Below, in pieces: positions 4,863 through 53,759 of a stretch of DNA of 64,000 nucleotides. The notes below the pieces were generated by a model. That model saw only the letters and a program-made list of their open reading frames with translations. It was not told the origin of the DNA and ran no database searches. The stretch covers positions 144,753-208,752 of the forward strand of contig JBBHKE010003048.1 in the NCBI GenBank assembly GCA_037447655.1, in the 5' to 3' direction. The stretch comes from Zygnema cylindricum. Lineage: Eukaryota; Streptophyta; Zygnematophyceae; Zygnematales; Zygnemataceae. Made by a program: the position numbers and the translations under genes. Positions within the stretch are counted from its first letter, which is position 1. Every line of letters starts with the position of its first letter.

Positions 4863-4877
4863 GACAGGCCCATAACG
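4863..4877 (-). other. CopiaA-1 primer-binding site (half initiator tRNA-Met)
   Basis: On the minus strand CGTTATGGGCCTGTC follows the LTR end. It matches the complement of the initiator tRNA-Met anticodon arm (GGTTATGGGCCCACC) at 12 of 15 positions rather than the tRNA 3' end. It lies in the gag frame and encodes V-M-G-L-S. Confidence 0.8.
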
Positions 4878-5724
4878 TGTTGTTCTACAACCACCGGTGC
4901 AGGAGGAGGAGCAGCAGTAGTAGTAGTAGTAGACATGATACACTCTCAGAAGCTATCAAGAATCCTACCAAACAGCTGTTCTTAAGTGCTCACCAATTCT
5001 TATACAAGCATCCAAATCTCACAAAACTCTATCAGAATATAGATTAGCATAAACACTGACAACTCCCAAAGTTTCAGCACAATTGACCCAACAACACTCA
5101 AGATATAATACTCAGAAGTTTCCCAAAAACTGTTTGCAGTTTTACTACTTGGAAGTCTGGATACATAAAAATGCTCTAAGTCCTAAGTCTTATACTTTCG
5201 GTGTTCTACCGCCGATAATAGTGTACCTGAGAGGTACGTCCAAAATCAACCCACCTACTGAGATCTACGTGTCCTTGATCGTGCCAACCCAATCTATCAT
5301 TGTACAGTCAATATTACTCAGAATCTAGATTAAGTGTTTGTACAAATACTTGTCGGCTAAGTCACTTGTGATACTCTTATGAATCTCGTTTGTTGACTAG
5401 ATTCATATCAATCGCAGCTGCGTTGTCCCGTACCGGATCACATTTACATCACCCGCGGCTGCGGTGTCCTGCACCGAATCATATCCAAGATAGTAGCAGT
5501 TGCGTTGTCCGTACGGATCTTATCCAAAGTAACCGCAGCTGCGTTTGTCCTGTCTGTGTCGCAGCTTCGCTGCCGCGCTGCTCTGCTGCTGCGCTGCTGC
5601 GCTGCTGCGCAGCTCTGCTGTATAGCAGCTGCGCTGCTCTTCCGTATAGGAGCTGCGCTGCTGTCTATATAGTTGCTGCGCTGCTGCGCTGCTCTGAGAC
5701 TGAAAGCTTTCCAAAAAGACAACA
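4878..5724 (-). repeat. CopiaA-1 5' LTR (847 bp) with promoter and gag start
   Basis: Plus-strand ends are TGTTGT (4878) and ACAACA (5724). On the minus strand it holds CTG/CAG-rich repeats (about 5415-5700), a TATA-like AGTATAAG next to the shared word AGGACTTAG (5176-5184), a leader of roughly 240 bases, and the gag ATG 59 nt before the LTR end. Confidence 0.9.
5176..5196 (-). promoter_or_regulatory. CopiaA-1 core promoter (TATA-like + AGGACTTAG)
   Basis: On the minus strand AGTATAAGACTTAGGACTTAG combines a TATA-like box with the 9-mer shared by all five copia LTR families of the window. The position, a few hundred bases before the LTR end, fits the transcription start region (U3/R). Confidence 0.6.
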
Positions 5725-5859
5725 ATCATTACCATCGGTTTCCTCTGGGTCATACCTAGATAGAACCGAAGAAGATTTTTCAGAGGATATCTTTTCTCAT
5801 CCTCTTCCATTTCAATTTTCGTTTAGTTCAAATTTGGAACAACCAGTGCATCCTCTTTT

Positions 5860-6420
5860 TGACGACATGGCTTTCTCAGAGGGATCCATGGGTAGGATGC
5901 AATTCTATTTTTCCGGATTAAAGGATATCATGTCCTTATCTCATTTCCGCATGCTTTATGACATAGAAATGAAGGACTTAGCCTTCCGATATCAAGACTG
6001 GTTTCGACCTTAGGGTCGCTTTCTCTCTCCTTGCCCAACCTTCGCGGTTAGACTCTCGCTTTATACACACATAAGTATGAGAGTATTTGTCAAATGACGG
6101 AGCACTCTCCACCTTTTGGAGGTTACCTAGCCATCCCCGACCAGGTAGAAATTCCCTACCAAGCGGCTGTTCCGGCAGTATTGGACGTTAATGGGGATGA
6201 GCTATATCCAGCCATCCCCGAGATTCCTCAACAATATGATATGGCTGCCCGTGCGACGGTTCCAGCTAGACCGGGAGGATTAATTATTTTACGTGACCTG
6301 CTATCAGTCATGTTCGATCTTCTCGAGGAAGAATATAATGGATGCAAAATCCAGATCAGGTTAAGGAGTTGATGAACTTCAAACGTATGCGTGGTGAGAC
6401 TGCCCCTGCTTTATGAGCTC
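5860..6420 (+). pseudogene. Gag N-terminal region of the gypsy-like element
   Basis: Broken coding DNA in more than one frame. The readable stretch is 6094-6372 (MTEHSPPFGGYLAIPDQ..., with an IPEIPQQYD segment and VPARPGG). A frame change near 6340-6370 leads into the capsid part. I cannot assign subdomains here beyond proximity to the capsid and zinc knuckles that follow. Confidence 0.45.
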
Positions 6421-6422
6421 CA

Positions 6423-7013
6423 ATGGAGACCCTTCGGGAAGCATTATCAGACCTTATGTCCGATGGAGAGGCTGTCCAAAAATTCGTGGGACAATTTTCT
6501 CCTCAATCAAAAATATTCATTCAGACTCATCTTAGTCAAACATACAGGCTGAAATTTACCTTTGAGAAAGCGGCTGAATATGTGGTTAGGTATCAGATGC
6601 AATCGTCGTGGTGGAATGCTCATGATAATCTCGTATCTCAAGGAAACCAATTTGACCAATCACCACCACCTCCGAGGAACCCGTGGCCTTCTAATAGGCC
6701 TCCAAAGACGTCGGCCATGGGAAACCCGCCATTTAATTCCGGAGGCCGATTGTGTTTCCGATGTGGAAACACGGGGCATGATGCTCGCATGTGCCCAGAT
6801 AATTTGGCCATATGCACCCTTTGCCTATAGAAAGGACATTTTGTCCACCGTTGTCATATTAAAGACCCTAATTTTTCGTATCCGAATTAGATTCAGGACG
6901 GTGGAATTCGTGCCCATGCTGCCAAGCTTGTCACTTCTCCTACAAAGACAGACAAAGAGGCGACTCCGCCTAAGATCTCTCGACAAGAGAGGGAAAAGGC
7001 CGAGTAACAAGTC
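6423..7013 (+). pseudogene. Gag capsid and double zinc-knuckle region
   Basis: The segment METLREALSDLMSDGE...YRLKF has the helical, charged look of a gypsy-type capsid C-terminus. Two CX2CX4HX4C knuckles follow: CFRCGNTGHDARMC at 6753-6794 and, through an in-frame stop, a second at 6813-6854 (C..C....H....C). RNA-binding nucleocapsid is the expected role. The stop inside the second knuckle and later frame changes mark a dead copy. Confidence 0.75.
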
Positions 7014-7763
7014 ATGATAGTAAAGGAACAATTTGCTGCCTTCATGGCCGAAATGAAACCCCAGTTCATAGAATTGGCAAGGACAATCGTGCACATGCCA
7101 TCATTGGCCGGCCAAATCCTCCGGGAATCTACTGTCCAACAACGGGCAGCTACTTTTGATAAAGGCTCGCCTGATCACAATCAAGATGGTAAATTACAAA
7201 ATTCCCGTCTTCCACTTTCTTTCGAAAAAGAATGTCTCTCACCTCTACTAGGCACAACTTCCTCCATTGTGGCAAAAGCTCTCACCATTCTGGATAGTAC
7301 CATACATGATGCACATCGAGTCAAGGAATGGCTAAGCATAATTTCTACCATGATTGATGAAGCTCACAGGGCCTCTCCCTATCCTACTGAGGTTCCCAAA
7401 ACCTCTCCCCTTGTTGATGAGTTTGTTGCAGCCGTCGCTTTGATGGCGTTGCAGCTGAACCGTAGTCTTTCAGTTATTCAGCCTGTTACCGCGGATGAGC
7501 GCCGTGACCTTGATCCTCACGCCAGTTTCCTGGACAATTCTCAAAATTCCTTCTCCGTTAATGGTGTTGCTTCTTCTGTCCCTCTCATGGACACCGTTAT
7601 CAAACCCGTGATCCTCGGATCCGGATTTGTGCTCAAGCTTGGTCTGACCGCAGACAAGCTTCAAGCCACAACAACTCGGCTTCTCCTTTTAGCTGGTACC
7701 ACGGAGTCGATGTTTGGAATCACAAAGGACCCGCTCACCTTTCGATTCCAAAACGGAACCTAG
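7014..7763 (+). pseudogene. Gag-protease linker and protease N-terminal part
   Basis: Open for 249 codons. The first two thirds are a linker with little recognisable content. The end (VPLMDTVIKPVILGSG...LGLT) resembles the active-site region of retroelement aspartic proteases, where DTGAxPVMLG is usual. Here the triad reads D-T-V, so the catalytic glycine is lost. A stop at 7761 ends the frame, and the protease fold seems to continue in another frame. Confidence 0.55.
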
Positions 7764-9184: not shown

Positions 9185-9185
9185 T

Positions 9186-9551: not shown

Positions 9552-10542
9552 TGTTGATTTGAGGCAGCTGGCGCCACTGAAGAAGATGAAGAAGCACCAA
9601 CAGTTGCCTTGATAATCAATTGTGCAAAGAGGAAACTCTAACGAAATCCCACAAACAACCAACTTCACAATGAAGCCCCAAACAAACCACACACACCCTA
9701 GGTCTGCAAATTTGCCACGATATAGAATATACACCAAAGAAACCACATGCAGAATTTTACAAAGTTCTGACAAAATATCACAATGATCTTATAATTCAAA
9801 CACACCCAAAAACTGCTTCACAGTTTTCCTACACAACAATCCTACTTTTCCTAAAGTAATCTAAGTCCTATATATACAAGTGAGCCTACAGTTGATCTCA
9901 CCGTACTACAACTAGCGTGGTCAATTAGTACACTACTTCATTAACAAAATCCCACCGTCGAATGCATATAATTATTTACACCAATCAGACAGCCGCTAGA
10001 AATGAAATAGTACGCGGTTAAAGTTTGTCCGCTGGAACGACGGTACAGTCAATACTTCTCTTCAAAAATGACGGCGGACTTTGTTCGCTTTCCACGTATT
10101 CTTTCATCACCGAAGATGAACCTCCACGTGTAACTTTGGTCCTCAAATGTAACTGTACCTTTTCTTCTAGAACACCAAACTTGACTTTCTGATGGACCGA
10201 CACGTGTGCCTGAAGTGCACCGAATCTGTGTACTCCCTTTCGAGTTACATACTCACTAAATCATGTCCCCGTCAATTTTTCTTCACACAAATATTCAGAA
10301 CACCTTTCTTGCGCAGACTGCTATAGTTGCTATGACTCTGCTACGACTGCTATGAATGCTATGATCTGTCAACGCAGCTGTGATATTAGAGCAGCGCAGC
10401 TGCGATGTCAGAACAAAGCAATATAGCAACATTACAACAAGTGTAGAGTGCTCAAGGTTTCTAGCTGTGTTGTCAGACTTAGAGCACCATGGCAGCATAG
10501 CAGCAAGATATAGAGAGAGAACTCAAGGTTTCCAAAACAACA
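9552..10542 (-). repeat. CopiaB-1 3' LTR (991 bp)
   Basis: Plus-strand ends TGTTGATTTG and CAAAACAACA. It includes the copied gag start: minus-strand codons ending ...AASNQ lie at the left end, although the ATG has become AAG (plus-strand CCTTG at about 9607). TATA box and AGGACTTAG at 9861-9878. Confidence 0.95.
9861..9878 (-). promoter_or_regulatory. CopiaB LTR promoter (TATATATA + AGGACTTAG), 3' LTR copy
   Basis: Minus strand: TTGTATATATAGGACTTAG. A classical TATA box overlaps the shared 9-mer. The same arrangement occurs at 15052-15069 and, on the plus strand, at 42399-42416. Confidence 0.75.
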
Positions 10543-13310: not shown

Positions 13311-14020
13311 TATTTAACACCATCTATCATATTTTGCTTTACCATTTTATCAAGCGTTTCATGATGAACATGACCGAGCCTCTTATGCCACAAAACATTT
13401 TCCGGAAGGACACTAGAGTATGCAAAGTCAATTTCATTAGCCAAGTCCATCCGGTAAAACAAGTTTGGGCCTCTAGTTCCTACCAAAGCTACCTTCCCAT
13501 TTTTGCTTACTACCTTTTTCCCATTCTTTTGTAAAATTTCAAAACCTTTGATTTCTTCTACCGAACTGGAAAACATTTTTTTTGTAAACTTTGGGATATA
13601 GAGAACATCATGCAAGGTTCTCTTTACAATCTGACCATTGATGTCACATGCTAACTCCACGCTTCCCTTTGCCGTAGCCTCCACACCGTTGTCATCCGCG
13701 TAATAAATCCGAGAGGGGATTCGAGTAAGCGTTTTGAAGTAAGCCCGGTTGCCGCACATGTGGGAGGAGCATCCGGAGTCCATAATCCATCCGTTCTCTC
13801 GAGGTCCCTCCATGAGATCTTTTGCAAGAGCAAAGATTTCGTCATCATCCGATTGCGGAAATCTGACCACATCTTCCTTTCTTTCTAGTCGTTCATCTTG
13901 TGACGTCTCATCAAATACAAAGAACGCCGCATTTTTAATCGGCAGTTTTGATGTCGAAATTTTTTGGTGATGAATCCTCCGATCGCACCCTCCATCCCGC
14001 ACGATAAATTCTTGTTTCAC
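13310..14020 (-). CDS. CopiaB-1 protease and integrase zinc module
   Basis: Open for 236 codons. Aspartic protease active-site segment GWIMDSGCSSHMC, intact D-S-G. The integrase N-terminal motif starts with [12 protein letters not shown] at the end; the CxxC half lies past the stop at 13310, in another frame. The N-terminal end overlaps the gag frame near 13935-14020, so a frame change joins gag to protease here. Part of the polyprotein; the first Met is not the natural start. Confidence 0.87.
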   Translation of the reverse strand: MKQEFIVRDGGCDRRIHHQKISTSKLPIKNAAFFVFDETSQDERLERKEDVVRFPQSDDDEIFALAKDLMEGPRENGWIMDSGCSSHMCGNRAYFKTLTRIPSRIYYADDNGVEATAKGSVELACDINGQIVKRTLHDVLYIPKFTKKMFSSSVEEIKGFEILQKNGKKVVSKNGKVALVGTRGPNLFYRMDLANEIDFAYSSVLPENVLWHKRLGHVHHETLDKMVKQNMIDGVK

Positions 14021-14801
14021 ACGCTTTTATAAATGCCGGACACAGCCGGAAAACATGACCTTGACTAAAGCAATAGACACACCTATCATATTGCCTATAA
14101 TTCGGATTGGGGGTAAAGTTTATGTTTCCAGAAAATCCAGCCGGCTTATATGTCTGTGCATTGTAAGCAACTACTGTTTGACCACCATTTAATGTTATCT
14201 GAGTTGCCTCTTCGTCTAAGATATAAGCCTGAGCTACTGCTATATTCCATTTACTCTTCTCTAACCTTCTTAGCTGCTCCGTTGCTCCTTTATATTCAGT
14301 AGGAAGCCCTCTCATTAGAATCATAGCTTGATGATAAGGAGGAAAACTCCCCCCGGAACATGCATTCTCCGACAATAGAAGTTTCAAGCCATTACAATAT
14401 GAGTTCATGTCACCCCCAGTATATTTATAGTCCCAAATTTTTCGAGCAGTAACAACCTCATTCTGCTCACTAGCTAAGACATAAGTTTCACTCAAAGCCT
14501 TCCATATTTCAGATGCCGTAAAGATATTGATATATCTTATGTTAAGATATTCTGACAAAAGTAACTTCAAAACATGCAATGCATCTTCATTTTTCTTTCC
14601 AAATTGTGGATCCGTATCCGGAAGAATACCATAAATCACATCATATAATTTCACTTGTTTGAAATAAGACTTAGTCAAATTCGCCCAATAAAGATACTTC
14701 TGCCCATTAAAGACTGGGATCCGTGAGGGAGGGCCCGTGACCTGTTGATTTGAGGCAGCTGGTGCCAATGACGAAGATGAAGAAGCACCAGCAGTTGCCA
14801 T
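13935..14801 (-). CDS. CopiaB-1 gag
   Basis: Open for 289 codons from the ATG at 14801-14799 (MATAGASSSSS); an upstream in-frame Met exists at 14849. The LTR end at 14743 lies 59 nt inside the gene, so the first codons belong to the LTR and are repeated in every LTR copy. The frame passes through the primer site as QVTGPPSRIPVF. The middle has the copia gag pattern (IWDYKYTGGDMNSY, LMRGLPTEY). The zinc knuckle CVYCFSQGHVFRLC is at 14040-14081. Gag would form the virus-like particle. Confidence 0.93.
   Translation of the reverse strand: MATAGASSSSSLAPAASNQQVTGPPSRIPVFNGQKYLYWANLTKSYFKQVKLYDVIYGILPDTDPQFGKKNEDALHVLKLLLSEYLNIRYINIFTASEIWKALSETYVLASEQNEVVTARKIWDYKYTGGDMNSYCNGLKLLLSENACSGGSFPPYHQAMILMRGLPTEYKGATEQLRRLEKSKWNIAVAQAYILDEEATQITLNGGQTVVAYNAQTYKPAGFSGNINFTPNPNYRQYDRCVYCFSQGHVFRLCPAFIKACETRIYRAGWRVRSEDSSPKNFDIKTAD
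14729..14742 (-). other. CopiaB-1 primer-binding site (half initiator tRNA-Met)
   Basis: Minus strand GGTCACGGGCCCTC, directly after the LTR's ...AATCAACA. It agrees with the anticodon-arm complement GGTTATGGGCCCAC except at three positions. It encodes V-T-G-P in gag. Confidence 0.75.
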
Positions 14802-15750
14802 GATAATCAATTCTGCAAAGAGGAAACTCTCACAAAATCCCACAAACAACCAACTTCACAATGAAGCTCCAGTCAAACAAGAAACACCCTAGGTTTGCAA
14901 ATTTGCCACAATATAGAATATACACCAAAAAAACCACATGCAGAATTTCACAAAGTTTTGACAAAAGATCACAATGATCTTATAATTCAAACACACCCAA
15001 AAAATGCTTCGCAGTTTTCCTACACAACAATCCTACTTTTCCTAAAGTAATCTAAGTCCTATATATACAAGTGAGCCTACAGTTGATCACACCGTACTAC
15101 AACTAGCGTGGTCAATTGGTACACTACTTCTTCATTAACAAAATCCCACTGTCGAATGCACATAATTATTTACCACAATCAGACAACCGCTAGAAATGAA
15201 ACAGTAGGCGGTTAAAGTTCGTCCGCTCAAATGACAGTACAGTCAATACTTCTCTTCAAAAATGACGGCGGACTTCGTCCGGTTTCCACGTATTCTTTCA
15301 TCACCGAAGATGAACCTCCACGTGTAACTTTGGTCCTCAAATGTAACTGTACCTTTTCTTCTAGAACAACCAAACTTGACTTTCTCACGGACCGACACAT
15401 GTGCCTGAAGCACCCAATTTGTGTACTCCTTTTCGAGTTACATACTCACTAAATCATGTCCCCGTCAATTTATCTTCACACAAACTGACTCATATTCGGA
15501 ACACCTTTCTTGCGCAGACTGCTATAGCTGCTATGACTCTGCTACGACTGCTATGACTGCTATGACTGCTATGATCTGTCAGCTCAGCTGTGATATTACA
15601 GCAGCGCAGCTGCGATGTCAGATTAGAGCAGCATAGCAGCACAACAACAAGTGTAGAGTGCTCAAGGTTTCTAGCTGCGATGTCAGACTTAGCGTAGCAT
15701 GGCAGCATAGCAACATGATATAGAGAGGACTCAAGGTTTCCAAAACAACA
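14743..15750 (-). repeat. CopiaB-1 5' LTR (1008 bp) with promoter and gag start
   Basis: Plus-strand ends TGTTGATTTG and CAAAACAACA, then CTTCA at 15751-15755. Minus strand: CAG-rich repeats, CACGTG-type words, an ATTGG box, TATA plus AGGACTTAG at 15052-15069, a leader of about 250 bases, gag ATG at 14801. Confidence 0.95.
15052..15069 (-). promoter_or_regulatory. CopiaB-1 5' LTR promoter
   Basis: Minus strand TTGTATATATAGGACTTAG: TATA box overlapping the shared 9-mer. This copy would drive the genomic RNA. Confidence 0.75.
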
Positions 15751-17800: not shown

Positions 17801-18855
17801 CTCCCCTTATTTTCTAGTCAATTTTTAAATTTAGACCACACTTCTCCCTGCAAAAATTTAGCTTAGTGGAAAGCACAGGTTTGGTCATCATATCTGCTAC
17901 CATCTCACTATCTGGTCGGTACTCTAAACTGATTATTTTGTTTTCTACTTTCTCTCTAACAAAGCTGAGTCTAATGTCCATGTGTTTGGCTTTAAAATGA
18001 TGTTTACGATTGGCAAAAATAGCTATTGCTACCTGATTATCACAAAATGTTTTCTGCACACCACTCTTAAGGTGACCAAGCTCACCAAGCAAAGACTTGA
18101 CCCACATCAATTCTTTTACAGCATAGCAAGAGGCCATATACTCAGCCTACATGGTGGACTGAGCAATAACTTTTTGCTGTTTGCTACTCCAACAGCAAGC
18201 CCCATCACCCACATATAATACATATCTAGAAGTGCATCTCCTCATCGGAGCATCACCATAACTGGCATCACTCCAAGTAGTGATGTCACTATTCTCCCCA
18301 TCCAAATGCAACCATAGATCTCTAGTTCGTATCAAATATCTAAGGACTCTCTTAGCTGCCTCCCAATCCCTCTTAGTGGGAGCATTTAGACTTCTACTCA
18401 GCACTCCTACAGCTGCAGCTATATAAGGCTGGGTACAATTAATAAAATATATTAGACTTCCCACTACTAGCCTGTAAGGAATAGTCTGCATGAACTTCTG
18501 TTCTTTAGGAGAAAATTCCTCATCTAAGACTATGACTCCTTCTTCCTCACTCCCCTCACTTCCGTTCTTTAACTCCATTGGAGTTGTACAACTATTAACT
18601 TTATCCATCTGAAATTTTTCAAGCATGTTCCCTATTGCTTTTTTTTGAGTCAATATTATAATCTTTCTTTTTCGGTCTCTTTCTACTTGAAATCCCAAAA
18701 TATATTTTGCTTCCCCCATATCCTTCATTTCAAATCTCCCCTTAAGATCGGTTTTCATTTTATTATTTTTTTCCATTGATTTACTTAAAACAAGCAAATC
18801 ATCAACATAAATTGCAATAAATATTAAACCTTCCTCATCTTCAAAAACATAGATT
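17801..18855 (-). pseudogene. CopiaC-1 RT C-terminus and RNase H
   Basis: 18147-18855 carries IAIYVDDLLVLSK (RT catalytic box), the connection region and WSDASYGDA. A stop at 18147 interrupts the E-A-E-Y motif region. 17814-18137 carries CDNQVAIAI, KHMDIRLSFV and VADMMTK. The polypurine tract AAAATAAGGGGAG lies at 17801-17813. Missing upstream RT lies beyond CopiaD-1, from 25210. Confidence 0.9.
18851..18855. repeat. CopiaD-1 target site duplication AGATT (left)
   Basis: AGATT before TGCAATTCTG; the same AGATT at 25205-25209 after the other LTR. Joined, the host sequence restores the RT context of CopiaC-1. Confidence 0.95.
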
Positions 18856-19856
18856 TGCAATTCTGTGTCCTCCATTGGACTACAGAATACAGGAAGCCTC
18901 TAGATAGTATTTAACTAACCCACTTTAAGCCACGACCACTTCTGCCCAAGAAGGCAAACTGACAATTTGACTGCACCTCTGTGTAGCCTGGACTCCTCTG
19001 AGTGCGTAGCAAAAAGAATCACTGAAAACGGCCAACCAGGCGATAAGTTACGAGCCGGCAAAAAATTCCAATTTATACAAAGCTCTCTTAGAGAGAGGTG
19101 TCTGTCTACCAAATATTTCCTAAGTCCTAAATCCCTCTCACAACCCCTATCTACTAAAGTACGAACCAATCGTATTATTGTGAAGTACAGAAAGGTACTA
19201 TGGCCGATGTATTTTCTGTACGGCCGGTGTACGATAAGGCTCTTGAGTGGACGCGTGTCATTTTTCCACTTGTCCGTATTTCCTCCAGAATTCCCGCGAC
19301 CGAATGTCATCCTTCCACGCGGCGCCACGTCATGCCACGTCCATAAAATCCAAAGTGACCATTCCGCGATCTCGGCGACGACGTGCGCCGTCGGATTAAA
19401 TCCGACATTAAATGTCGACCGTTCAAAGTGTCTGTTTCATTTGTTTCGTGCGAAATGACGTTTCGCACTAAACCTTAACAAGTTCTATGTTCGTTTCGTT
19501 TCATATTCCAGTTAGATCATTTCGGTACTATACAACAGTTTATATATGAATGAAACCCTATATTATCTAACGGACTTCTACGACAGACTGGTTAGAGCTA
19601 ACGGCTACGCCGCGCTCTACCGGTCGGGGGTTCGAGTCCTGCCGGACTCAACCTTTTGTTGAGAGTGACTTAAGTCACTCTTTAGTCCTTCCTATGGAGC
19701 TGAGGCAGCCATGGCTCCACGCTCTCTCTCTCTTTCAGTGACTACAACAAGTATGGGGGAGAGAGAGAAGAGATGGAGGCAGGCTGCCATCATTTCTTAT
19801 ATATGTTTCCGCTAATTTATTTTAAACTAGAAAATACAAAAACTACTTATTTCAAC
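18856..19856 (-). repeat. CopiaD-1 3' LTR (1001 bp)
   Basis: Plus-strand ends TGCAATTC and TTTCAACA. Contains AGGACTTAG (19120-19128, minus), a GTAC cluster (about 19158-19232) and the tRNA-like segment (19587-19652). Confidence 0.95.
19587..19652 (+). other. tRNA-like segment in CopiaD-1 3' LTR (antisense to the element)
   Basis: Plus-strand D-arm-like CTGGTTAGAGC (19588-19598) and perfect B-box GGTTCGAGTCC (19629-19639), spaced as in a tRNA gene. The acceptor stem does not close, so it is tRNA-derived rather than a working tRNA. Confidence 0.65.
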
Positions 19857-19870
19857 ACTCCCCTTATTTT
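19857..19870 (-). other. CopiaD-1 polypurine tract
   Basis: Minus strand GAAAATAAGGGGAG, directly before the 3' LTR. Confidence 0.75.
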
Positions 19871-23692: not shown

Positions 23693-24221
23693 TCATTTAT
23701 AAGTGTAACTCAATAGCTTTTGCTCAGCCAACTGGAGCTCCTGAATAGTTCCAGCTCTATAAATCTCCACCAAACTCTCCCACAATTCCTCTGCCTTGTA
23801 AATGTGAAGATGAGGAGTGGCCAAACCTTGAGTGAGGTGCCTCAAAATGAAGTTCTTGGCAGCCATGTTTACATCCTCCCACATTTGAGTATCGTTCTCC
23901 ACGGTCTTCACGGTCGCCGTTCCCGATACAATGGCAATAGGAGTGAGGGGTGTCTCCTTCCCTTTCTCCTTTTCGGACACACTGCTATCCCCATCATCTG
24001 CCTCCTCCGCTGAGGCAGCCGTTGTTGCAGAAAAATCTTACTCCCCCAAATCCTGGTGGAGTTCCCGAAGGTGGACGTTTCACTTGTCCACTGACGATAC
24101 CCCAGTATCGTTTTTCACACAAAGCTCCCATCATCATGGCTTCCCAATAGATGAACCCAGATCCATTGAAGGTGGGCACCTTAGAGGGTGGGCCCATAAC
24201 CTGCAATTCTGTGTCCTCCAT
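23693..24221 (-). pseudogene. CopiaD-1 gag N-terminal part
   Basis: Starts at ATG 24221-24219, 20 nt inside the LTR: MEDTELQVMGPPSKVPTFNG. The V-M-G-P-P-S is encoded by the primer site. Residues FIYWEAMMMGALCEKRYWGI are the Gag N-terminal helix region. A frameshift near 24040 leads to the second open piece (23980-23693, SEKEKGKETPLTP...LRHLTQGLATPHLH...LLSYTYK), which ends at a TGA (23693-23695). Beyond it the frame continues as the long gag-pol segment. Confidence 0.9.
24188..24201 (-). other. CopiaD-1 primer-binding site (half initiator tRNA-Met)
   Basis: Plus strand GTGGGCCCATAACC is identical to the anticodon stem-loop of eukaryotic initiator tRNA-Met (CAT anticodon). The minus-strand RNA would therefore pair perfectly over 14 bases. 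It abuts the LTR end and lies in the gag frame. Confidence 0.88.
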
Positions 24222-24465
24222 TGGACTACAGAATACAGGAAGCCTCTAGATAGTATTTAACTAACCCACTTTAAGCCACGACCACTTCTGCCCAAGAAGG
24301 CAAACTGACAATTTGACTGCACCCCTGTGTAGCGTGGATTTCCCTGAGTCCATAGCAAAAAGAATCACTGAAAACGGCCAACCAGGCGATAAGTTACGAG
24401 CCGGCAAAAAATGCCAATTTATACAAAGCTCTCTTAGAGAGAGGTGTCTGTGTACCAAATATTTC

Positions 24466-24580
24466 CTAAGTCCTAAATCCCTCTCACAACCCCTATCTAC
24501 TAAAGTACGAACCAATCGTATTACTGTGAAGTACAGAAAGGTACTATGGCCGATGTACTTTCTGTACGGCCGGTGTACGA
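24466..24580 (-). promoter_or_regulatory. CopiaD-1 core promoter: GTAC cluster, ATTGG box, AGGACTTAG
   Basis: GTAC occurs at 24505, 24531, 24541, 24555, 24564 and 24575. Between them the minus strand has GATTGG. Downstream is AGGACTTAG at 24466-24474. GTAC is the core recognised by plant and green-algal SBP-domain factors; binding here is inference. Confidence 0.55.
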
Positions 24581-24931
24581 CAAGGCTCTTGAGTGGACGC
24601 GTGTCATTTTTCCACTTGTCCGTATTTCCTCCGGAATTCCCGCGATCGAATGTCATCTTTCCACGCGGCGCCACGTCATGCCACGTCCATAAAATCCAAA
24701 GTGACCATTCCGCGATCTCGGCGACGACGTGCGCCGTCGGATTAAATCCGACATTAAATGTCGACCGTTCAAAGTGTCTGTTTCACTTGTTTCGTGCGAA
24801 ATGACGTTTCGCACTAAACCTTAACAAGTTCTATGTTCGTTTCGTTTCATATTCCAGTTAGATCATTTCGGTACTATACAACAGTTTATATATGAATGAA
24901 ACCCTATATTATCTAACGGACTTCTACGACA

Positions 24932-24998
24932 GACTGGTTAGAGCTAACGGCTACGCCGCGCTCTACCGGTCGGGGGTTCGAGTCCTGCCGGACTCAAC
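24932..24998 (+). other. tRNA-like segment in CopiaD-1 5' LTR (antisense to the element)
   Basis: Same as 19587-19652: CTGGTTAGAGC at 24933-24943 and B-box GGTTCGAGTCC at 24975-24985. Confidence 0.65.
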
Positions 24999-25209
24999 CT
25001 TTTGTTGAGAGTGACTTAAGTCACTCTTTAGTCCTTCCTATGGAGCTGAGGCAGCCATGGCTCCATCGCTCTCTCTCTCTTTCAGTGACTACAACAAGTA
25101 TGGGGGAGAGAGAGAAGAGATAGAGGCAGGCTGCCATCATTTCTTATATATGTTTCCGCTAATTTATTTTAAACTAGAAAATACAAAAACTACTTATTTC
25201 AACAAGATT

Positions 25210-27355: not shown

Positions 27356-28484
27356 TCCACAGTAAGCACATTTCTACCTTCGTGGAATTTCGACCTCGTT
27401 TTTCGCCTCCAACTCCTCATCCAAAAGAAGCTCATTGTCCTCGTCCTCAAATTTCGCCTCATGTACCTGTGTCACAAGGGCCTTTTTCTTTCCTCTCGGG
27501 GTACCACCGATATGGCCCTCCTTTAAATAAAGCTCTGTTAGCTTAGTGCACTCTGCCATATAGTGCCCTGGTTTCTTACAAAAATGACATTAACCTTTGG
27601 GAGCCCTTGGTCTGAACTTGTCGGCCTGATTTTTCTGCTCTTTTCCCCCATAGTTTCTGACCGGTTTCCGATAATCCTTGTGCCTTCAATCGGTCGAAGA
27701 TGCCAAGGCTTGGCCACTCTTTCCTCCCCTTCGGATCTCAATCGTATTCTCCCGAACGAGAATCATCCCTACCACTGAGTTCCATATCCACCTTGAGTCC
27801 GGCAAGTCCTGCACACGGTTGACTATGTTCTCGAACTCATCGGGTAACTTCATCAGTAAACAGTTAACCTTTTTTTTTCACTAAAATCTTTTCCCGCACT
27901 CTCTAGCTCCATGAAGAGTATAGCAAGCTCATTGCAAAAATCTAACATTTTTCCCCCTTTGTATATATATTCCTTAACTTTCTGATCAGGCAACTGTTGT
28001 TGCTGAATCGTACCACTTTGGTACATCGCAAAGAAAGCCATCCACAGATCGGATGCCCTTTCTACCTGCAAATGAGGACATGCAAGTCCTTGAGTAAGAT
28101 GGCGTAGGATGAAGTGCTTTGCCGCCATATTGTTGAAGTCCCATGTTTGAGTATCATTCTCCTCGTTTCTCGAAATACGTGACATTAATGTTGAACCAGT
28201 TGCTATTGGTGTAGTCGTCTCTTTCTCCACTCCTTTGTCCACCTCCTCTCCTTCCTTTGTCTCCTCCGTTGATGATGGACCTGCTTTCTTTGTGAATCAG
28301 CTTCTTCAAACCTTAGAGGAATTCCAAGACTTGATGGACGCCCCAATCGTCCACTCACTATCCCCCAAAACCTTTTATCGCATAGAGCTCCTATCATCAT
28401 ACTTTCGCATTATATGAAGCCAGTTCCATTAAAGATTAATACCCTAGAGGGTGGGCCCATAACCTGAAACTCTTAGACCTCCAT
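27356..28484 (-). pseudogene. CopiaC-1 gag
   Basis: Gag from the ATG at 28484-28482 inside the LTR; the frame closes at once (ATGGAGGTCTAA), so this copy cannot start properly. Pieces follow in several frames: 28203-28400 (MMIGALCDKRFWGIVSG), 27853-28242 (NMAAKHFILRHLTQGLACPHL, MLDFCNELAILFMELESAGKDFSEK). A zinc-knuckle region at about 27548-27589 is frame-disrupted. Almost identical to the gag of CopiaC-5 (50683-51280). Confidence 0.88.
28451..28464 (-). other. CopiaC-1 primer-binding site (half initiator tRNA-Met)
   Basis: Plus strand GTGGGCCCATAACC, identical to the initiator tRNA-Met anticodon arm, abutting the LTR start TGAAAC at 28465. Confidence 0.88.
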
Positions 28485-31613: not shown

Positions 31614-31659
31614 GGTTATGGGCCTAGCATGTAGGTTGCCCATATTCAATGGAGCTGGT
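31594..31659 (+). pseudogene. CopiaC-2 gag start and primer-binding site
   Basis: ATG at 31594, 20 nt inside the LTR: MEVSELQVMG. The primer site GGTTATGGGCCT (31614-31625) matches the half initiator tRNA-Met site at 11 of 12 positions. After 22 codons the frame runs into the LTR of CopiaC-3 at 31660; gag resumes at 38105. Confidence 0.85.
31655..31659. repeat. CopiaC-3 target site duplication, left (CTGGT, mutated)
   Basis: CTGGT here against CTAGC at 38105-38109. Related gag copies read GGAACTAGCTT or GGAGTTGGCTC at this place, so the two differences are probably later transitions. Confidence 0.65.
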
Positions 31660-32735
31660 TGTAGAAATTGATGGTCATTTTTTAAGTATTTTCTAAGTCT
31701 AAATAGAAATACAGAAAGAAGCAGAGGGAATCTATCTCAAACGTCTCTCTCCAACTCCCACACTTGTCGCAATTATTAAGAAGCAGGAGAGGAAGCTAGA
31801 GCCATGGCTTCCTTGGCTATCCGGAGGTTTACGGGGAATAGATTTGTTGATTACTTGAATGGTAGTTTAGTAGTTTTTTTACTAAAAAAATAGTGATGTA
31901 ACCAGGATTTGATCCTAGATCCTGCTGGACGTTAGGCAACTGGTAGCCGGTAACCTTATCCGTTAGGTCTAAAGCTAATGATACACGATGTAGGATTTGA
32001 TATTTATTTATACATTATTACGTAGGATATTTCATTTAACCAAACTGCTTACGGTATATATAGATTCAGTTATGTAGAAATACGGATTACGATACGGATA
32101 AGAAACAAGTATAGCGCATTTGTTTCTTTAAACGAAACAAATACCGCGCAAGTATTTATGACGGCTCCGATTGAAATTTGCATTAAATCGGACAGCTGAG
32201 AACAAAGCCAAGATCGTGGAAGAGATTCTCGCCAGTTTGTGGTCATCGCCACATCGAATGACACGTGGCAAAATTGCGTTGGATCGCAGCATCTCCGGGA
32301 ATTACGAGATCGAATCCGGATATGACATGTGTCGACTTTTAGACTATGTCCCACAATATCCGTACAGAAAGTAAACCAGCAGCTATACTTTTGTGTACGG
32401 AAGTGTAATATGATTGGCTTTGTACGTCAATAGATAGAGTCTGTGAGAGAGATAGTACTTAGAAAAAATTGGTAGATAGGACCCTCTCTCCCACAGAGCT
32501 TCTGTACAAAAGGTCAACTTTGACCCTCCATAACTTATTGCTCAAGGGAGCAAATTCAAAGATTCTTTTTGCTATCGACTCAAGGGAGTCTTGCCTTCAC
32601 AGGGGTGAAAGTGGTCAGGGTTTTTGTTTGCCAAGGTGGTAGTTATTCTTGCTGAAATACAAAGGGGTCAAGGTTATCCTAGAGGCTTTTTGGAAGCTAT
32701 CCACTCTGAGGACTTATGGAGGTCTCGCAGTTTCA
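31660..32735 (+). repeat. CopiaC-3 5' LTR (1076 bp)
   Basis: TGTAGAAATTGATGG...CGCAGTTTCA. tRNA-like segment 31899-31972 (minus), ACGT boxes near 32260, GTAC words near 32360-32430. Leader hairpins at 32512-32525, 32538-32553, 32577-32590 and 32595-32610. Gag ATG at 32716. Confidence 0.94.
32512..32650 (+). promoter_or_regulatory. Row of small hairpins in the CopiaC-3 leader
   Basis: GGTCAA-CT-TTGACC (32512-32525), TTGCTC-AAGG-GAGCAA (32538-32553), GACTC-AAGG-GAGTC (32577-32590), CTTCAC-AGGG-GTGAAA (32595-32610), and a weaker TGCCA...TGGT pair near 32630. These sit between the transcription start word and gag. Possible roles are packaging, dimerisation or translation control; none is shown. 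Confidence 0.55.
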
Positions 32736-33660
32736 AGTTATGGGCCCACCCTCTCAAATACCCATCTTTAATGGAACTAGCTTGATATACTGGGAAAGTA
32801 TGATGATAGGAGCTCTATGCGAGAAAATATTTTGGTGGATACTGAGTGGATGAGTGGGGCGTCCATCAAGTATCGCAGTCTCTCTAGGGATTGGAGAAAG
32901 CAGATTAACAAGGAAAGCAGATCCATCTTCAACGGAGGAGACAAAGAAAGGAGAGGTGGTGGACAAATCAACGGAGAAGGAGACGACTTCACCAATAACA
33001 AGTGGTTCAGCATTCATGTCACCTATTCCAAGGAACGAGGAGAATGATAGTGATACCTGGGACTTCAACAATATGGCGTCAAAGCACTTCATCCTCCGCC
33101 ATCTTACTCAAGGGCTTACATGCCCTCATTTAAAGGTAGAAAGGGCATCCGATCTTTGGATGGCTCTCATAGAGATGCATCAAAGTGGTACGATTCAGCA
33201 ACAACAGTTGGCTGATCAGAAAGTTAAGGAGTATGTATACAAATGGGGGAAGATTTTAGATTTTTGCAATGATTTTGTTACACTGTTCATAGAGCTAGAG
33301 AGTGCGGGAAAAGCTTTTAGTGAAAAAGAAAAGGTTAACTGTTTACTAATGATGTTACCTGATGAGTTCGAGAACATAGTCAACCGTGTGCGGGACTTGC
33401 CAGACTAAAGGTGGATATGGAACTCAGTGGTAGGGATGATTCTCTTCCGGGAGAAAACGATTGAGATCTGAAGGGGAGGAAAGAGTGGGCAAGCCATGGC
33501 AGTTGCGACCGATTCAAGGAACAAGGAGTCATGGAAACCAGTCAGAAACTATGGAGGGAGGGAGCACAAAAAACAGACCGACGAGTTCGGACCAAGGACT
33601 CCCAAAGGTTTATGTCATTTTTGTAAGAAACCGGGGCACTATATGGCAGAGTGCACTAAG
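32716..33660 (+). pseudogene. CopiaC-3 gag
   Basis: ATG at 32716, 20 nt inside the LTR: MEVSQFQVMGPPSQIPIFNG; the primer site AGTTATGGGCCCACC encodes V-M-G-P-P. The frame then gives LIYWESMMIGALCEKIFW. A frame change near 32850 leads into 32854-33408 ([39 protein letters not shown]), which ends at a stop (33406-33408). The zinc knuckle CHFCKKPGHYMAEC lies at 33613-33654. Confidence 0.9.
32736..32750 (+). other. CopiaC-3 primer-binding site (half initiator tRNA-Met)
   Basis: AGTTATGGGCCCACC right after the LTR; one mismatch to GGTTATGGGCCCACC. Confidence 0.85.
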
Positions 33661-41743: not shown

Positions 41744-42726
41744 TGTTGTTTTGGAAACCTTAAGTTCTCTCTATATCTTGCTGCTATGTTGCCATGCTGC
41801 GCTAAGTTTGACATCGCAGCTAGAAACCTTGAGCACTCTACACTTGTTGCTGTGCTGCTATGGTGCTCTGATCTGACATCGCAGCTGCGCTGCTCTAATA
41901 TCACAGCTGCGCTGACAGATCATAGCAGTCATAGCAGTCATAGCAGTCTGCGTAAGAAAAGTGTTATGAATATGAGTCAGTTTGTGTGAAGATAAATTGA
42001 CGGGGACATGATTTAGTGAGTATGTAACTCGAAAGGGAGTACACAGATTCGGTGCACTTTAGGCACACGTGTCGATCCGTGAGAAAGTCAAGTTTGGTTG
42101 TTCTAGAAGGAAAGGTACAGTTACATTTGAGGACCAAATTTATACGTGGAGGTTCATCTTCGGTGATGAAAGAATACGTGGAAAGCGGACGAAGTCCGCC
42201 GTCATTTTTTGAAGAGAAGTATTGACTGTACCGTCATTTCAGCGGATGAACTTTAACCGCGTACTATTTCATTTCTAGCTGCTGTCTGATTGGTGGAAAT
42301 AATTATGTGCATTCGACTTTGGGATTTTTGTTAATGAAGAGTAGTGTACCATTTGACCACGCTACTTGTAGTACAGTGTGATCAATCGTAGGCTCACTTG
42401 TATATATAGGACTTAGATTACTTTAAGAAAAGTAGGATTGCTGTGTAGGAAAAACTGCGAAGCAGTTTTTGGGTGTGTTTGAATTATAAGATCATTGTGA
42501 TATATTGGCAGAACTTTGTGAAATTCTGCATGTGGTTTTTTTGGTTTATATTTTATATTGTGGCAAATTTGCAGACCCAGGGTGAGTCTGGTTTGTTTGG
42601 GGCTACATTGTGAAGTTGGTTGTTTGTGGGATTTGGTGAGAGTTTCCTCTTTACACAATTGATTATCATGGCAACTGCCGGTGCTTCTTCATCTTCTTCA
42701 GTGGCACCAGCTGCCTCAAATCAACA
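41744..42726 (+). mobile_element. Solo CopiaB LTR (983 bp) inside CopiaC-2 RNase H
   Basis: TGTTGTTTTGG...CAAATCAACA with TATAG duplications. Colinear with the CopiaB-1 LTRs. No internal sequence follows, so it arose by LTR-LTR recombination. It carries CAG-rich U3, CACGTG-type words, TATATATA plus AGGACTTAG (42399-42416), a leader of about 250 bases and the gag ATG at 42668-42670, 59 nt before its end. Confidence 0.96.
42399..42416 (+). promoter_or_regulatory. Promoter of the solo CopiaB LTR
   Basis: TGTATATATAGGACTTAG: TATA box overlapping the shared 9-mer, here placed to drive the downstream fused frame. Confidence 0.7.
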
Positions 42727-43234
42727 TATAGCTGCAGCTGTAGGAGTGCTGAGTAGAATTCTAAATGCTCCCACTAAGAGGGATTGGGAGGCAGCTAAGA
42801 GAGTCCTTAGATATTTGATAGGAACAAGGGATCTATGGTTGCATTTCGGTGGGGAGAATATTGGCATCACTACTTGGAGTGATGCCAGTTATGGTGATGC
42901 TCCGATTAGGAGATGCACTTCAGGATATGTATTATATGTGGGTGATGGGGCTTGTTGTTGGAGTAGCAAACAACAAAAGGTTATTGCTCAGTCCACCATG
43001 GAGGCTGAGTATATGGCCTCTTGCTCTGCTGTAAAAGAATTGATGTGGGTCAAGTCTTTGCTTGGTGAGCTTGGTCACCTTAAAAGTGGTGTGCATAATT
43101 TTTTTAGTGATAATCAGGCAGCAATCGCTATTTCTGCCAATCGTAAACATCATTTTGAAGCCAAACACATGGACATTAGACTCAGTTTTGTTAGAGAGAA
43201 AGTAGAAAACAAAATAATCAGTTTAGAGTACTGA
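42668..43234 (+). CDS. Chimeric frame: CopiaB Gag leader fused to CopiaC RNase H
   Basis: Open for 189 codons from the LTR-encoded ATG (MATAGASSSSSVAPAASNQ); an in-frame Met at 42620 would add 16 residues. At 42727 it passes without a stop into the connection and RNase H of CopiaC-2 (IAAAVGVLSRILN, TTWSDASYGD, EAEYMA). The DNQAA motif reads SDNQAA. It ends at a TGA (43232-43234), before VADMMTK, so the last catalytic Asp is missing. Transcription and function are unproven; it is a readable by-product of LTR insertion. Confidence 0.85.
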   Translation: MATAGASSSSSVAPAASNQHIAAAVGVLSRILNAPTKRDWEAAKRVLRYLIGTRDLWLHFGGENIGITTWSDASYGDAPIRRCTSGYVLYVGDGACCWSSKQQKVIAQSTMEAEYMASCSAVKELMWVKSLLGELGHLKSGVHNFFSDNQAAIAISANRKHHFEAKHMDIRLSFVREKVENKIISLEY

Positions 43235-45248: not shown

Positions 45249-45844
45249 TGTAGAAATTGATGGTTAGTTTAGTATTTTCTAGGTCCAAAATAAAATGCAC
45301 AAAAAAAGCCACGACAGTCTGCCTCTAACTTCTCTCTTCAACTCCCACACTTGTTGCAGTCACTCAAATTCGGAGATGAAGCTAGAGCCATGGCTGCCTA
45401 TGCTATCCTGTGATTTACGGGTAGTAGATTAGTTGATTCACAATAGTAAATTAGTTGATTTACTAATTTACCAAATATAGAGCCGTCGGAACCACGATTT
45501 GATCCTAGTACCTACCGGCCGTCAGAGCTGCCGGTAGCACAATCCATTTAGTCTATGACGAGTGCTAGATTATATACGGTTTGATAATTAGATAAATATT
45601 TTTACGCTAACAAATTCATTTAACGGAAACTTTTAATGGATACATAGATTCGGTTATCTAAAAAGTACGGATTAAGGTACGACAATAAACAAGTACTGCA
45701 CATTTGGTTCGACAGTAAAACGAGTATCGCGCAAGTATTTATTACGGCTACGATTAAATCTGCATTTAATAGGACGGCCGGAATGAATGCCGAGATCGCG
45801 GAAGAGGATTTTCAGCGGTTTTTGGTCATCGCCACATCGGATGA
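45249..45844 (+). repeat. CopiaC-4 5' LTR, left part
   Basis: TGTAGAAATTGATGG start; tRNA-like segment about 45488-45560 (minus). Interrupted at the GATGA (45840-45844) of its ACGT-box region by CopiaC-5. Confidence 0.92.
45840..45844. repeat. CopiaC-5 target site duplication GATGA (left)
   Basis: GATGA here and at 52333-52337; removing the insert restores CACATCGGATGACACGTGG. Confidence 0.95.
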
Positions 45845-50157: not shown

Positions 50158-51285
50158 TCCACAGTAAGCAAATTTGTGCCTTCGTGGAATTTCGACTCGT
50201 TTTTCGCCTCCAACTCCTCATCCAAAAAGAGCTCATCGTCCTCGTCCTTGGATTCCACCTTATGTACCTGTGTCACAAGGTCCGTTTTCTTTCCTCTCGC
50301 GATACCACCAGTCTGCCCCTCCTTTAACCGAAGCTCTGTAAGCTTAGTGTACTCTGCCATATAGTGCCCCAGTTTCTTACAAAAATGACATAAACCTTTG
50401 GGAGCCCTTGGTCCGAACTCGTCAGCTTGATTTTTTTGCTCTTTTCCCCCTAGTTTCTGACCGGTTTCCAAGAATCCTTGTTTCTCCAATCGGTCGCAGT
50501 TGCCAAGGTTTTGCCACTCTTTCCTCCCCTTTGGATCTCAATCGTATTCTCCCAAACGAGAATCATCCCTACCAATGAGTTCCATATTCACCTTGAGTCC
50601 GGCAAGCCTTGCACACGGTTGACTATGTTCTCGAACTCATCTGGTAACTTCTTTAGTAAAAAGTTAACCTTTTCTTTTTCACTAAAATCTTTTCCCGCAC
50701 TCTCTAGCTCCATGAAGAGTATAGCAAGCTCATTGCAAAAATCTAACATTTTTCCCCCTTTGTATATATATTCCTTAACTTTTTGATCAGGCAACTGTTG
50801 TTGCTGAATCGTACCACTTTGGTACATCGCAAAGAAAGCCATCCACAGATCGGATGCCCTTTCTACCTGCAAATGAGGACATGCAAGTCCTTGAGTAAGA
50901 TGGCGTAGGATAAACTGCATTGCCGCCATATTGTTGAAGTCCCATGTTTGAGTATCATTCTCCTCGTTTCTCGAAATACGTGACATTAATGTTGAACCAG
51001 TTGCTATTGGTGTAGTCGTCTCTTTCTCCACTCCTTTGTCCACCTCCTCTCCTTCCTTTGTCTCCTCCGTTGAAGATGGACCTGCTTTCTTTGTGAATCA
51101 GCTTCTTCAAACCTTAGAGGAATTCCAAGACTTGATGGACGCCCCAATCGTCCACTCACTATCCCCCAAAACCTTTTATCGCATAGAGCTCCTATCATCA
51201 TACTTTCGCATTATATGAAGCCAGTTCCATTAAAGATTAATACCCTAGAGGGTGGGCCCATAACCTGAAACTCTTAGACCTCCAT
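50158..51285 (-). pseudogene. CopiaC-5 gag
   Basis: The LTR-encoded ATG at 51285-51283 is followed by TAA two codons later, as in CopiaC-1. Pieces: 51004-51201 (MMIGALCDKRFWGIVSG), 50588-51043 ([39 protein letters not shown]), and 50154-50489 with zinc knuckle CHFCKKLGHYMAEY, in which the last Cys is Tyr. Confidence 0.9.
51252..51265 (-). other. CopiaC-5 primer-binding site (half initiator tRNA-Met)
   Basis: Plus strand GTGGGCCCATAACC, identical to the tRNA anticodon arm, abutting the LTR start at 51266. Confidence 0.88.
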
Positions 51286-52332
51286 AAGTCCTCAGAGTGG
51301 ACAGCTTTCAAGAAAAGCCTCTATGATAACCCTGACCCCTTTGTGTTTCAACAAGAAAAAATGCCACCCTGGCAGACAAAAACTCTTACCAACTTCAACC
51401 CTGTGAAGGCAAGACTCCCTTGAGTCGATAGCAAAAAGAATCTTTGAATTTGCTCCCGTGAGCAGTAAGATATGGAGGGTCAAAGTTGACCTTTTGTTCA
51501 GAAGCTCTCCGGAGAGAGGGTCCTATCTCCTAATTTTTCTAAGTCCTATCGCTCTCACAGACTATATCTACTGAAGTACGGAGCCAATCATATTCCACTT
51601 CCGTACACAAAAGTACAGGTGCCAGTGTACTTTTTGTACGGACATTGTACGACATGGCCTGAATGTCGACACGTGGTATATCCGGATTTGCTCCCTTAAT
51701 CCTCGGAGATGCCGCGATCCAATGATATTCCGCCACATGTTATCCGATGTGGCGATGACCACAAACCGCCGAAATCCTCTTCCGGGATCTCAGCATTCAT
51801 TCCTGCCACTGATTAAATTCACATTTAATCGTAGCCGTAATAAATACCTGCGCGGTATTGGTTTCACTAAAGAAACAAATGCGCGTTATTCATTTTTTTA
51901 TCCGTACCACAATCCGTACTTTTACATTACTGAATCTATGTATCCCGTAAATAGTTTCAGTTAAATGAACTATCCGACTTGGTAATGTATAAGTAAATAT
52001 CAAACCCAATAGCACGTAACACTAGGTCTAAATATAACGGATAAGGCTACCGGCTACCAGCTGCTTATCGGCCGGCAGGTACCAAGATCAAATCCTATGG
52101 GCAACACATATCCTTTTAGTAAATAAACCTCTAACGGTAAACTAATATACATATTTCCCGTAAACCTCTAGATAGCCTAGGTAGCCATGGCTCTAGCTTC
52201 CTCTTCAATTTCTCAGTGACTGCGATAAGTTTGAGAAGTTGGAGAGAGAAGTTAGAGGTAGACTGCCTCGGCTTTTTCCTATATTTCTATTTAGACCTAG
52301 AAAATACTTTAAACGGGTCATTTATTTCTACA
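51266..52332 (-). repeat. CopiaC-5 5' LTR (1067 bp)
   Basis: Plus-strand ends TGAAACTC and TTTCTACA, then GATGA. tRNA-like segment about 52028-52105 (plus). Its first ~450 bases are nearly identical to 28465-28905. Confidence 0.94.
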
Positions 52333-52337
52333 GATGA

Positions 52338-52809
52338 CACGTGGCAAATGACATTGGATCGCGGCATCTCCGGAGATTAAGAGAGCAAATTCAAATATAC
52401 CACGTGTCAACATTTAGGCCATGTCGTACAGTATCCGTAAAGAAAGTACACCGGCAGCTATACTTCTCTGTACGCAAGATTAATATGATTGGTTCCGTAA
52501 ATCAGTAGATAGATTTTGTGAGAGAGATAGGACTTAGAAAAATTGGTAGATATGACCCTCTCTCCCAGATAGCTTTTCTACAAAAGGTCAACTTTGACCC
52601 TCCATAACTTACTGCTCAAGAGAGCAAATTCAGAGATTCTTTTTGCTATCGACTTAAGGGAGTTTTGCCTTCACAAAGGTGAAGGTGATCAGAGTATTTA
52701 TTTGCCATGGTGGCAGCTAATTGTGCTGAAAGACAAAGGGGTCAAGGTTCTCCTAGAGGCTTCGTGTGAGCTGCTAACTCTGAGGTCTTATGGAGGTCTT
52801 ACACTTGCA
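52338..52809 (+). repeat. CopiaC-4 5' LTR, right part
   Basis: Continues from 45844 after the GATGA duplication: CACGTGGCAAATGACATTGG, GTAC words, AGGACTTAG near 52530, leader, gag ATG at 52790-52792, end ...CACTTGCA. Confidence 0.92.
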
Positions 52810-53759
52810 CGTTATGGGCCCACCATCTAAGGTGCCCATATTCAATGGAGTTGGCTCCATATACTGAGAAAGTATGATGACAGGAGCTCTATATGAGAAA
52901 CGGTTTTGGGGAATACTGAGTGGACGGGTGAGGCTTCCATTCAGTCTTGGGATACCTCCAGGTTTACAAGAGGCAGATTCACTAGAGATGCAGATCTATC
53001 TTCAACGGAGGAGACAAAGGAAGGAGAGGTGGTGGACAAAGGAAAGGAGAAAGAGATGACAACACCAAAAGCAACTGGTTCCGCATTCATGTCACCTGAG
53101 GAGAATGATATTGATACCTGAGACTTCGACAATATAGCGGCAAAGCACTTCATCCGTAGCCATCTTACTCAAGGACTTGCATGTCCTCATTTGCAGGTAG
53201 AAAATGCATCCGATCTTTAGATGGCTCTCATAGAGATGTAGCGAAGTGGTACGATTGAGCAACAACAGTTGGCTGATCAGAATGTTAAAGAGTATGTATA
53301 CAAAGGGGGGAAGATGTTAGATTTTTGCAATAAGCTTGCTACACTTTTTATAGAGCTAGAGAGTGCTCGAAAAGATTTTAGTGAAAAAGAAAAGGTTAAC
53401 TGTCTACTGATGAAGTAATATGAGTTCGAGAACATAGTCAATATGTGCAGGACTTGCCAGACTTAAGATAGATATGGAACTCAGTGGTAAGAATGATTCT
53501 TGTTCGGGAGAATACAATTGAGATCCGAAGGGGAGGAAAGAGTGGGCAAGCCTAGCCAGCTGGGACCGACTGGAGGAACAAGGATTTCTTGGAGACCGGT
53601 TGGAAATTACGGAGAGGCGGAGCAGAAAATTTAGACCGACGAGTTCGGACCAAGGGCTCCCAAGGGTTTATGTCATTTCTGTAGGAAACCAGGGCACTAT
53701 ATAGCGGAGTGCACTAAGCTAACCGAGCTTCGGTTAAAAGAGGGGCAGACGGTGGAACC
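52790..53759 (+). pseudogene. CopiaC-4 gag
   Basis: ATG 20 nt inside the LTR: MEVLHLHVMGPPSKVPIFNG; the primer site CGTTATGGGCCCACC (52810-52824) encodes V-M-G-P. A stop replaces the Trp of IYW after 28 codons. Later pieces: MMTGALYEKRFWGILSG (52874) and ACLFIELESA-like sequence. The zinc knuckle CHFCRKPGHYIAEC at 53671-53712 is intact. Confidence 0.9.

Follow-up and report, generated by a model that had tools for sequence, protein, structure and literature searches.

Ty1/copia elements of Zygnema cylindricum with a probable gag start in the LTR and a putative primer site for half initiator tRNA-Met inside the gag frame

We analyzed a 64-kb stretch of the genome of the streptophyte Zygnema cylindricum (contig JBBHKE010003048.1, positions 144,753 to 208,752 of the forward strand; hereafter the window). 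The window holds old, nested Ty1/copia retrotransposons in which an ATG shortly before the end of the long terminal repeat (LTR) is in phase with gag, and in which the LTR is directly followed by a sequence resembling the complement of the anticodon arm of initiator tRNA-Met. We think it probable that gag of these elements begins at this AUG in U5, that one frame runs across both the LTR end and the primer site, and that half of an initiator tRNA-Met primes reverse transcription. In this model, the RNA would start in the 5′ LTR, roughly 350 nt upstream of the AUG in U5. Ribosomes would scan an AUG-poor leader and initiate at the AUG 20 nt (in elements A and B, about 59 nt) before the LTR end. 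A single frame would then lead over the LTR end and the primer site into Gag, encoding Q-V-M-G-P-P (Q-V-T-G-P-P in lineage B). The primer for reverse transcription, annealed to this site, would be a 5′ half of initiator tRNA-Met whose last base is nt 39. The starts of transcription and translation, as well as the identity of the primer in vivo, are predicted here from sequence.

LTR ends and primer sites in the window

Pfam searches identified copia-type Gag (Retrotran_gag_2), integrase (rve) and RVT_2 reverse transcriptase in the window elements. Integrase is encoded ahead of reverse transcriptase; in element A, rve lies in the open reading frame (ORF) at 2166-3713 (-) and RVT_2 in the ORF at 1207-2523 (-). 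This order and the type of Gag are those of Ty1/copia (Pseudoviridae). The closest named reverse transcriptase matches are from angiosperms, with ~45-56% identity. LTR pairs were taken from a comparison of the window with itself, and LTR ends were set by comparing 5′ with 3′ LTRs and by the flanking target duplications, which we give in the orientation of the element. There are eight LTR/gag junctions with a primer site, with ATGs at 4936, 14801, 24221, 28484, 31594, 32716, 51285 and 52790, plus one solo LTR of family B. An earlier note on this DNA, which placed the LTR end inside the gag frame, had described coordinates and sequences correctly but counted seven junctions.

Two of the junctions have the ATG 59 nt inside the LTR. 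The 5′ LTR of element A (4878-5724, -) carries it at 4936-4934; its 3′ LTR extends beyond the window, so this end is without duplication support. An ORF of 196 aa (4346-4936, -) runs from the LTR ATG through the primer-site position (4863-4877, -) and encodes Retrotran_gag_2 (E=2.1e-12). Element B has its 5′ LTR at 14743-15750 (-), its ATG at 14801-14799, its primer-site position at 14728-14742 (-) and an ORF of 288 aa from the LTR ATG through the site at 13935-14801 (-; Retrotran_gag_2, E=6.3e-11). It is flanked by TGAAG/TGAAG, and in its 3′ LTR (9552-10542, -) the start codon is changed to AAG. The solo B LTR (41744-42726, +), with its ATG at 42668, is flanked by TATAG/TATAG.

The other elements have the ATG nearer to the LTR end. 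In element E it lies at 24221-24219, 20 nt inside a 5′ LTR (24202-25204, -) that is followed by the primer site at 24187-24201 (-) and flanked, with the 3′ LTR (18856-19857, -), by AATCT/AATCT; the identity of this LTR pair is 98.2%. In elements C1 (5′ LTR 28465-29532, primer site 28450-28464, both -) and C2 (5′ LTR 51266-52332, primer site 51251-51265, both -), the ATGs at 28484 and 51285 are followed by the same TAA, which stops the frame within the LTR; the 3′ LTR of C2 (45845-46915, -) is without it. The duplication is TCATC/TCATC for C2 and, if the LTR is taken by eye to start with TGTTA at 29532, AGAGA/AGAGA for C1. Element D3 (5′ LTR 31660-32735, ATG 32716, 20 nt inside, primer site 32736-32750, all +) has an imperfect duplication, CTGGT/CTAGC. 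The ends of the remaining two LTRs come from alignment to the other LTRs: D1 has its ATG at 31594 and its primer site at 31614-31628 (+), and D2, whose 5′ LTR is split by C2 into a first part (45249-45844) and a last part (52333-52809, +), has its ATG at 52790 and its primer site at 52810-52824 (+). Target duplications are perfect for B, the solo B LTR, E, C2 and, with the start set by eye, C1, in keeping with the LTR ends that the earlier note had fixed by them.

The stops after 28484 and 51285, which that note also recorded, are both present but do not represent two events. C1 and C2 (25205-29532 and 47965-52332) have in common a tract of ~1.2 kb that is 95.5-100% identical, compared with 84-94% outside it, and that spans the LTR end, the primer site and the gag start, as after gene conversion. 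The tract carries the stop, and C1 and C2 count once.

Directly after the terminal CA of the LTR, all eight junctions have a 15-mer resembling GGTTATGGGCCCACC. Elements E, C1 and C2 match it at 15 of 15 positions, D2 and D3 at 14, D1 at 13, B (whose site is GGTCACGGGCCCTCC, with ACG in place of the ATG) at 12 and A at 11; the wording of the earlier note, that sites were of one sequence or close variants, needs correcting for A and B. When both strands were scanned (127,972 window positions), seven places matched at 12 or more positions, and every one of them directly follows CA. The element A site is tied by two unrelated places in the window. A looser scan (13-mer, up to 3 mismatches) gave 16 places in the window against 10.2 expected, which is not striking, as 6 of 100 shuffles reach 16.

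LTRs can also bring their ATG to other coding sequence. The start codon of the element E 3′ LTR is in frame with a flanking pol fragment (ORF of 242 aa, 18147-18875, -), and the frame of the solo B LTR likewise continues into the pol fragment adjoining it (204 aa, 42620-43234, +). Thus, both LTRs carry a portable start codon. Elsewhere in the window, zinc-knuckle ORFs at 6423-7763 (+) are unlike the local copia elements and possibly represent gag of another retroelement. No tRNA genes and no Rfam matches were found in the window, viral contigs gave no match, and phage records gave just one partial match (28% identity).

Genome-wide recurrence and the start of gag

The arrangement recurs throughout the host genome. 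In 352,776,454 bases (2,689 contigs), the exact 15-mer occurs 5,974 times (3,019 + 2,955), compared with 6 times (3 + 3) for a reversed control. We examined the first 82 listed of these 5,974 exact sites, taken without gap. The two bases before the site are CA in 75, TA in 3, CT in 3 and GA in 1, and an ATG is found at exactly -20 in 76. The frame of the in-phase LTR ATG is open through the site in 67 of the 82, compared with 2 and 2 for the other two phases, and 20 codons from the LTR-end codon on are open in 70. This comparison of genome copies around the junction, which the earlier note had proposed as a check, agrees with what is seen in the window. A 3′ LTR copy was located for 12 of 20 larger loci; these copies end -10 to +1 nt from the site, and 5 of the 12 insertions (L009, L014, L015, L018, L028) have perfect target duplications. 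For most of the others, the LTR start lay beyond the resolution of the search window used. Six insertions have LTRs that are at least 97% alike (L009, L012, L018, L021, L023, L028), and five of them have the open frame. The ATG at -20 is present in all seven LTR groups of that type, which are 59-66% alike in the six pairs compared.

Two of the insertions with closely similar LTRs, L012 and L021, are shorter elements. Their LTRs are at least 99.5% identical, and an ORF of 626 aa that begins at the LTR ATG and spans the primer site encodes Gag and a zinc knuckle, with no pol domain detected by Pfam. They are apparently gag-only companions.

Judging by its phase, its recurrence, the leader upstream of it and the fate of a second ATG in lineage B, the LTR ATG is most likely the start of gag. 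Over the 350 nt before it, 19 LTRs (L016 left out) contain 25 ATGs, compared with 124.8 in a control that is the mean of five other permutations of the letters; in the next 450 nt upstream, the same LTRs contain 149 against 165.8. One control bin (250-299 nt) has a high value, 35.4, and the contrast in depletion is independent of that bin. Depletion is found in each of 24 LTRs, including those of lineages A and B (0-3 ATGs, compared with 4.8-10.0). Under a Markov model applied to single LTRs of the window, an ATG-free stretch of this kind has a probability of 0.0025-0.014 in E3, C1_5, C2_5, D3_5 and D3_3, and of 0.03-0.05 in B. An ATG-poor stretch of ~350 nt is what one would expect upstream of a first AUG, and a scanning ribosome would come to the LTR ATG before any other start codon.

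Gag could instead start at the ATG inside the primer site, a triplet complementary to the anticodon of the initiator tRNA; in that case, the LTR ATG would be a short upstream or minor start, and read-through from it incidental. We consider this unlikely. At each of the 82 exact sites, where it belongs to the 15-mer used for the search, this ATG has the phase of gag, and a gag-like peptide follows. In L009, whose LTRs are 99.8% alike, 1,441 codons can be read from the primer-site ATG without a stop while a stop follows the LTR ATG, and of 100 E-type LTR ends listed, 18 have such a TAA. However, a start at the primer site is at odds with the order in which a scanning ribosome would meet the two AUGs, with the frame that is open from the LTR ATG in most of the 82 copies, and with lineage B. 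We compared 20 B copies, picked for a stop-free match from 136 matches (135 of 20,182 candidates were scored). Of these 20, 19 retain the LTR ATG (17 at -59, one at -65, one at -53); in contrast, 18 have lost the ATG within the primer site. Because the copies were chosen without stops, their open frames and frame-keeping length changes are partly built in, which is not so for the contrast between the two ATGs. One B-type match is part of a stop-free frame 1,463 codons long.

Several observations weigh against initiation at the LTR ATG. Fifteen of the 82 copies would be unable to use it: seven have TAA at -8 (one of these also lacks the ATG), three have a TA end that makes a stop, three further copies have a changed ATG, one has a short deletion, and L016 has a stop and no in-phase ATG. 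These counts are not independent, because the copies have common ancestry. One of the insertions with closely similar LTRs, L009, has a stop between the LTR ATG and the site. The ATG-free stretch is unremarkable under the Markov model (0.13-0.65) in A, E5, C1_3, C2_3, D1_5 and D2_5, and copies of the C, D and E type retain the second in-frame ATG inside the primer site as a possible alternative start. At the codon level, the last 20 nt of the LTR are without a third-position pattern, and in the LTR part of B the synonymous share is 0.46 compared with 0.295 in pairs, but 10/35 among distinct changes.

The stop 8 nt before the LTR end might have been specific to 5′ LTRs. L009 and L010 have TAA in the 5′ LTR and GAA in the 3′ LTR, a single G/T difference, and in C1 and C2 the stop is likewise found in the 5′ LTR only. 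As a rule, this was ruled out: among the 100 listed E-type ends, TAA is present in 10 of 49 with a primer site and in 8 of 51 without one (Fisher p=0.61).

Complementarity to initiator tRNA-Met

The host genome has seven places with the searched initiator anticodon arm, compared with none for the reversed control. ARAGORN called tRNA-Met(CAT) at six of the seven; L093 was not called. The 15-mer is the exact complement of nt 25-39 in the host tRNA-Met genes (26-40 in L092, where the called gene begins one base earlier). As the earlier note had claimed, the site is complementary to the anticodon arm and not to the 3′ end of the tRNA; at the eight window junctions, no stretch closer than 10 nt to the LTR end matches a 3′-end site at more than 7/15. 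Like a hemivirus primer site, it complements an internal part of initiator tRNA and adjoins the LTR, with just 11-12 of 15 positions matching in lineages A and B. If the primer stops at nt 39, its end would lie right against the LTR end, and in Drosophila copia a 39-nt tRNA half is the reported primer. The host tRNA-Met is of the plant type. The human initiator tRNA (PMC8274982) differs from that of the host at one of these 15 positions. The RNA fold of the LTR end and primer site in one stretch (L014) was no more stable than shuffles (z -0.45).

The case for this primer is tempered by two points. Because the tRNA search pattern itself held the complement, the independent evidence from the tRNA genes is the ARAGORN call alone. 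In addition, GGTCACGGGCCCTCC, with the same 3 of 15 mismatches to the tRNA, is found in the window copy of B and in 8 of the 20 other B copies. Two of the B-lineage mismatches (window 14728-14742, L096-L105) lie in or next to the anticodon complement. Random decay of the B primer site was ruled out, as the exact variant is common to those eight copies. Either pairing tolerates these mismatches or lineage B would prime differently. The latter, with another RNA or self-priming in place of half initiator tRNA-Met in at least lineage B and the match inherited or partial, could also account for the 11/15 site of element A, but we regard it as quite improbable given the thousands of exact 15-mers at LTR ends and their exact complementarity to the host tRNA-Met genes.

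Relatives, known systems and implications

Because the CA of the LTR and the first G of the site form a Q codon, the arrangement can be recognized in proteins as QVMGP. A search with the Gag of element B gave a single match, P0121 (62% identity over 182 aa to B, 56% over 173 aa to A), with the N-terminus ...TEQQVMGPSSRIPVF. Among 241 listed proteins that were fetched, just P0121 and P0228 (which reads AELQVEQVMGPP) have VMGP within their first 150 residues, and the motif is absent from the remaining 173,560 residues of those proteins. From the proteins alone, we infer that both have coding primer sites. In an integrase (INT) tree made up mostly of unnamed proteins, families A, C, D and E form one clade with 99% support, and P0228, with EQVMGPP near its N-terminus, falls outside this clade; B and P0121 are not in the tree. 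That the arrangement is an accident inherited from an ancestor with a chance ATG near the LTR end and an ATG-poor leader, neither of which mattered because gag was started otherwise, such as by splicing, would fit the relatedness of all copies and the lack of clear constraint in the codon-level comparisons, but it is very improbable, since LTR groups as divergent as those described above retain both the ATG and the ATG-poor leader, a 6-nt difference in the part encoded by the LTR leaves the frame intact in two of the 20 B copies, which were selected for open frames, and P0228 has the mark from outside the clade.

The components of the proposed arrangement have precedents. Half-tRNA-Met primer sites are known in the plant Ty1/copia lineages Osser, Bryco and part of Gymco-II, and half-tRNA-Ile sites in Bianca, amounting to ~2% of elements in all (Neumann 2019, PMC6317226); the accessible part of that paper mentions neither a gag start in the LTR nor a coding primer site. 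Drosophila copia and yeast Ty5, both hemiviruses, use as primer an initiator tRNA that is cut internally, or its half (PMC5371799, PMC8515867), and the elements described here resemble them in having a short internal segment of initiator tRNA as the primer predicted from sequence alone. In Physcomitrium, the Bryco element RLC5 is likewise an abundant copia element with shortened companions, tRLC5 (PMC7466625, PMC12885004), comparable to the gag-only L012 and L021; PMC7466625 does not mention PBS, primer binding, tRNA, start codon or ATG.

The overlap itself is that of yeast Ty1. Ty1 gag begins inside the LTR, and the Zygnema elements have the same anatomy, with the gag ATG inside the LTR and the primer site inside gag. 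As in the Zygnema elements, the Ty1 primer site lies in the GAG ORF (PMC4974528). In contrast, the Ty1 site pairs with the 3′ end of its tRNA and Ty1 pol is reached via a frameshift (PMC7175516), whereas here the site is complementary to the anticodon arm, and a separate pol frame was not found in L009, where gag and pol form a single open frame from the primer-site ATG. The earlier note knew of no description of the combination in plants. We found no plant report combining a gag start in the LTR with a half-tRNA site inside gag in the searchable literature, a weak negative, as most subscription papers and the Neumann supplement lie outside its reach. The combination looks new as a variant of known arrangements, but half-tRNA-Met sites were already known in plants, as was the location of a primer site in gag from Ty1.

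We speculate, with considerable doubt, that the arrangement acts as a switch. A tRNA half annealed in the first codons of gag may stop ribosomes and commit the RNA to reverse transcription. The primer-site AUG of C, D and E elements could then serve as a second start, its triplet read by initiator tRNA and paired by the cut 5′ half of the same tRNA, and lineage B, having lost this AUG, would have let the site drift from the tRNA.

Annotation that seeks gag only downstream of the primer site would miss such a gag start, and Q-V-M-G-P near the N-terminus of Gag lets similar elements be found, as it did for P0121 and P0228. If the primer site is coding, the same 15 nt would link the translation of an RNA to its reverse transcription. 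With one 15-nt stretch in both roles, the way in which an element divides its RNA between them becomes testable, and the thousands of copies in Z. cylindricum, together with a lineage lacking the AUG in the site, offer natural experiments.

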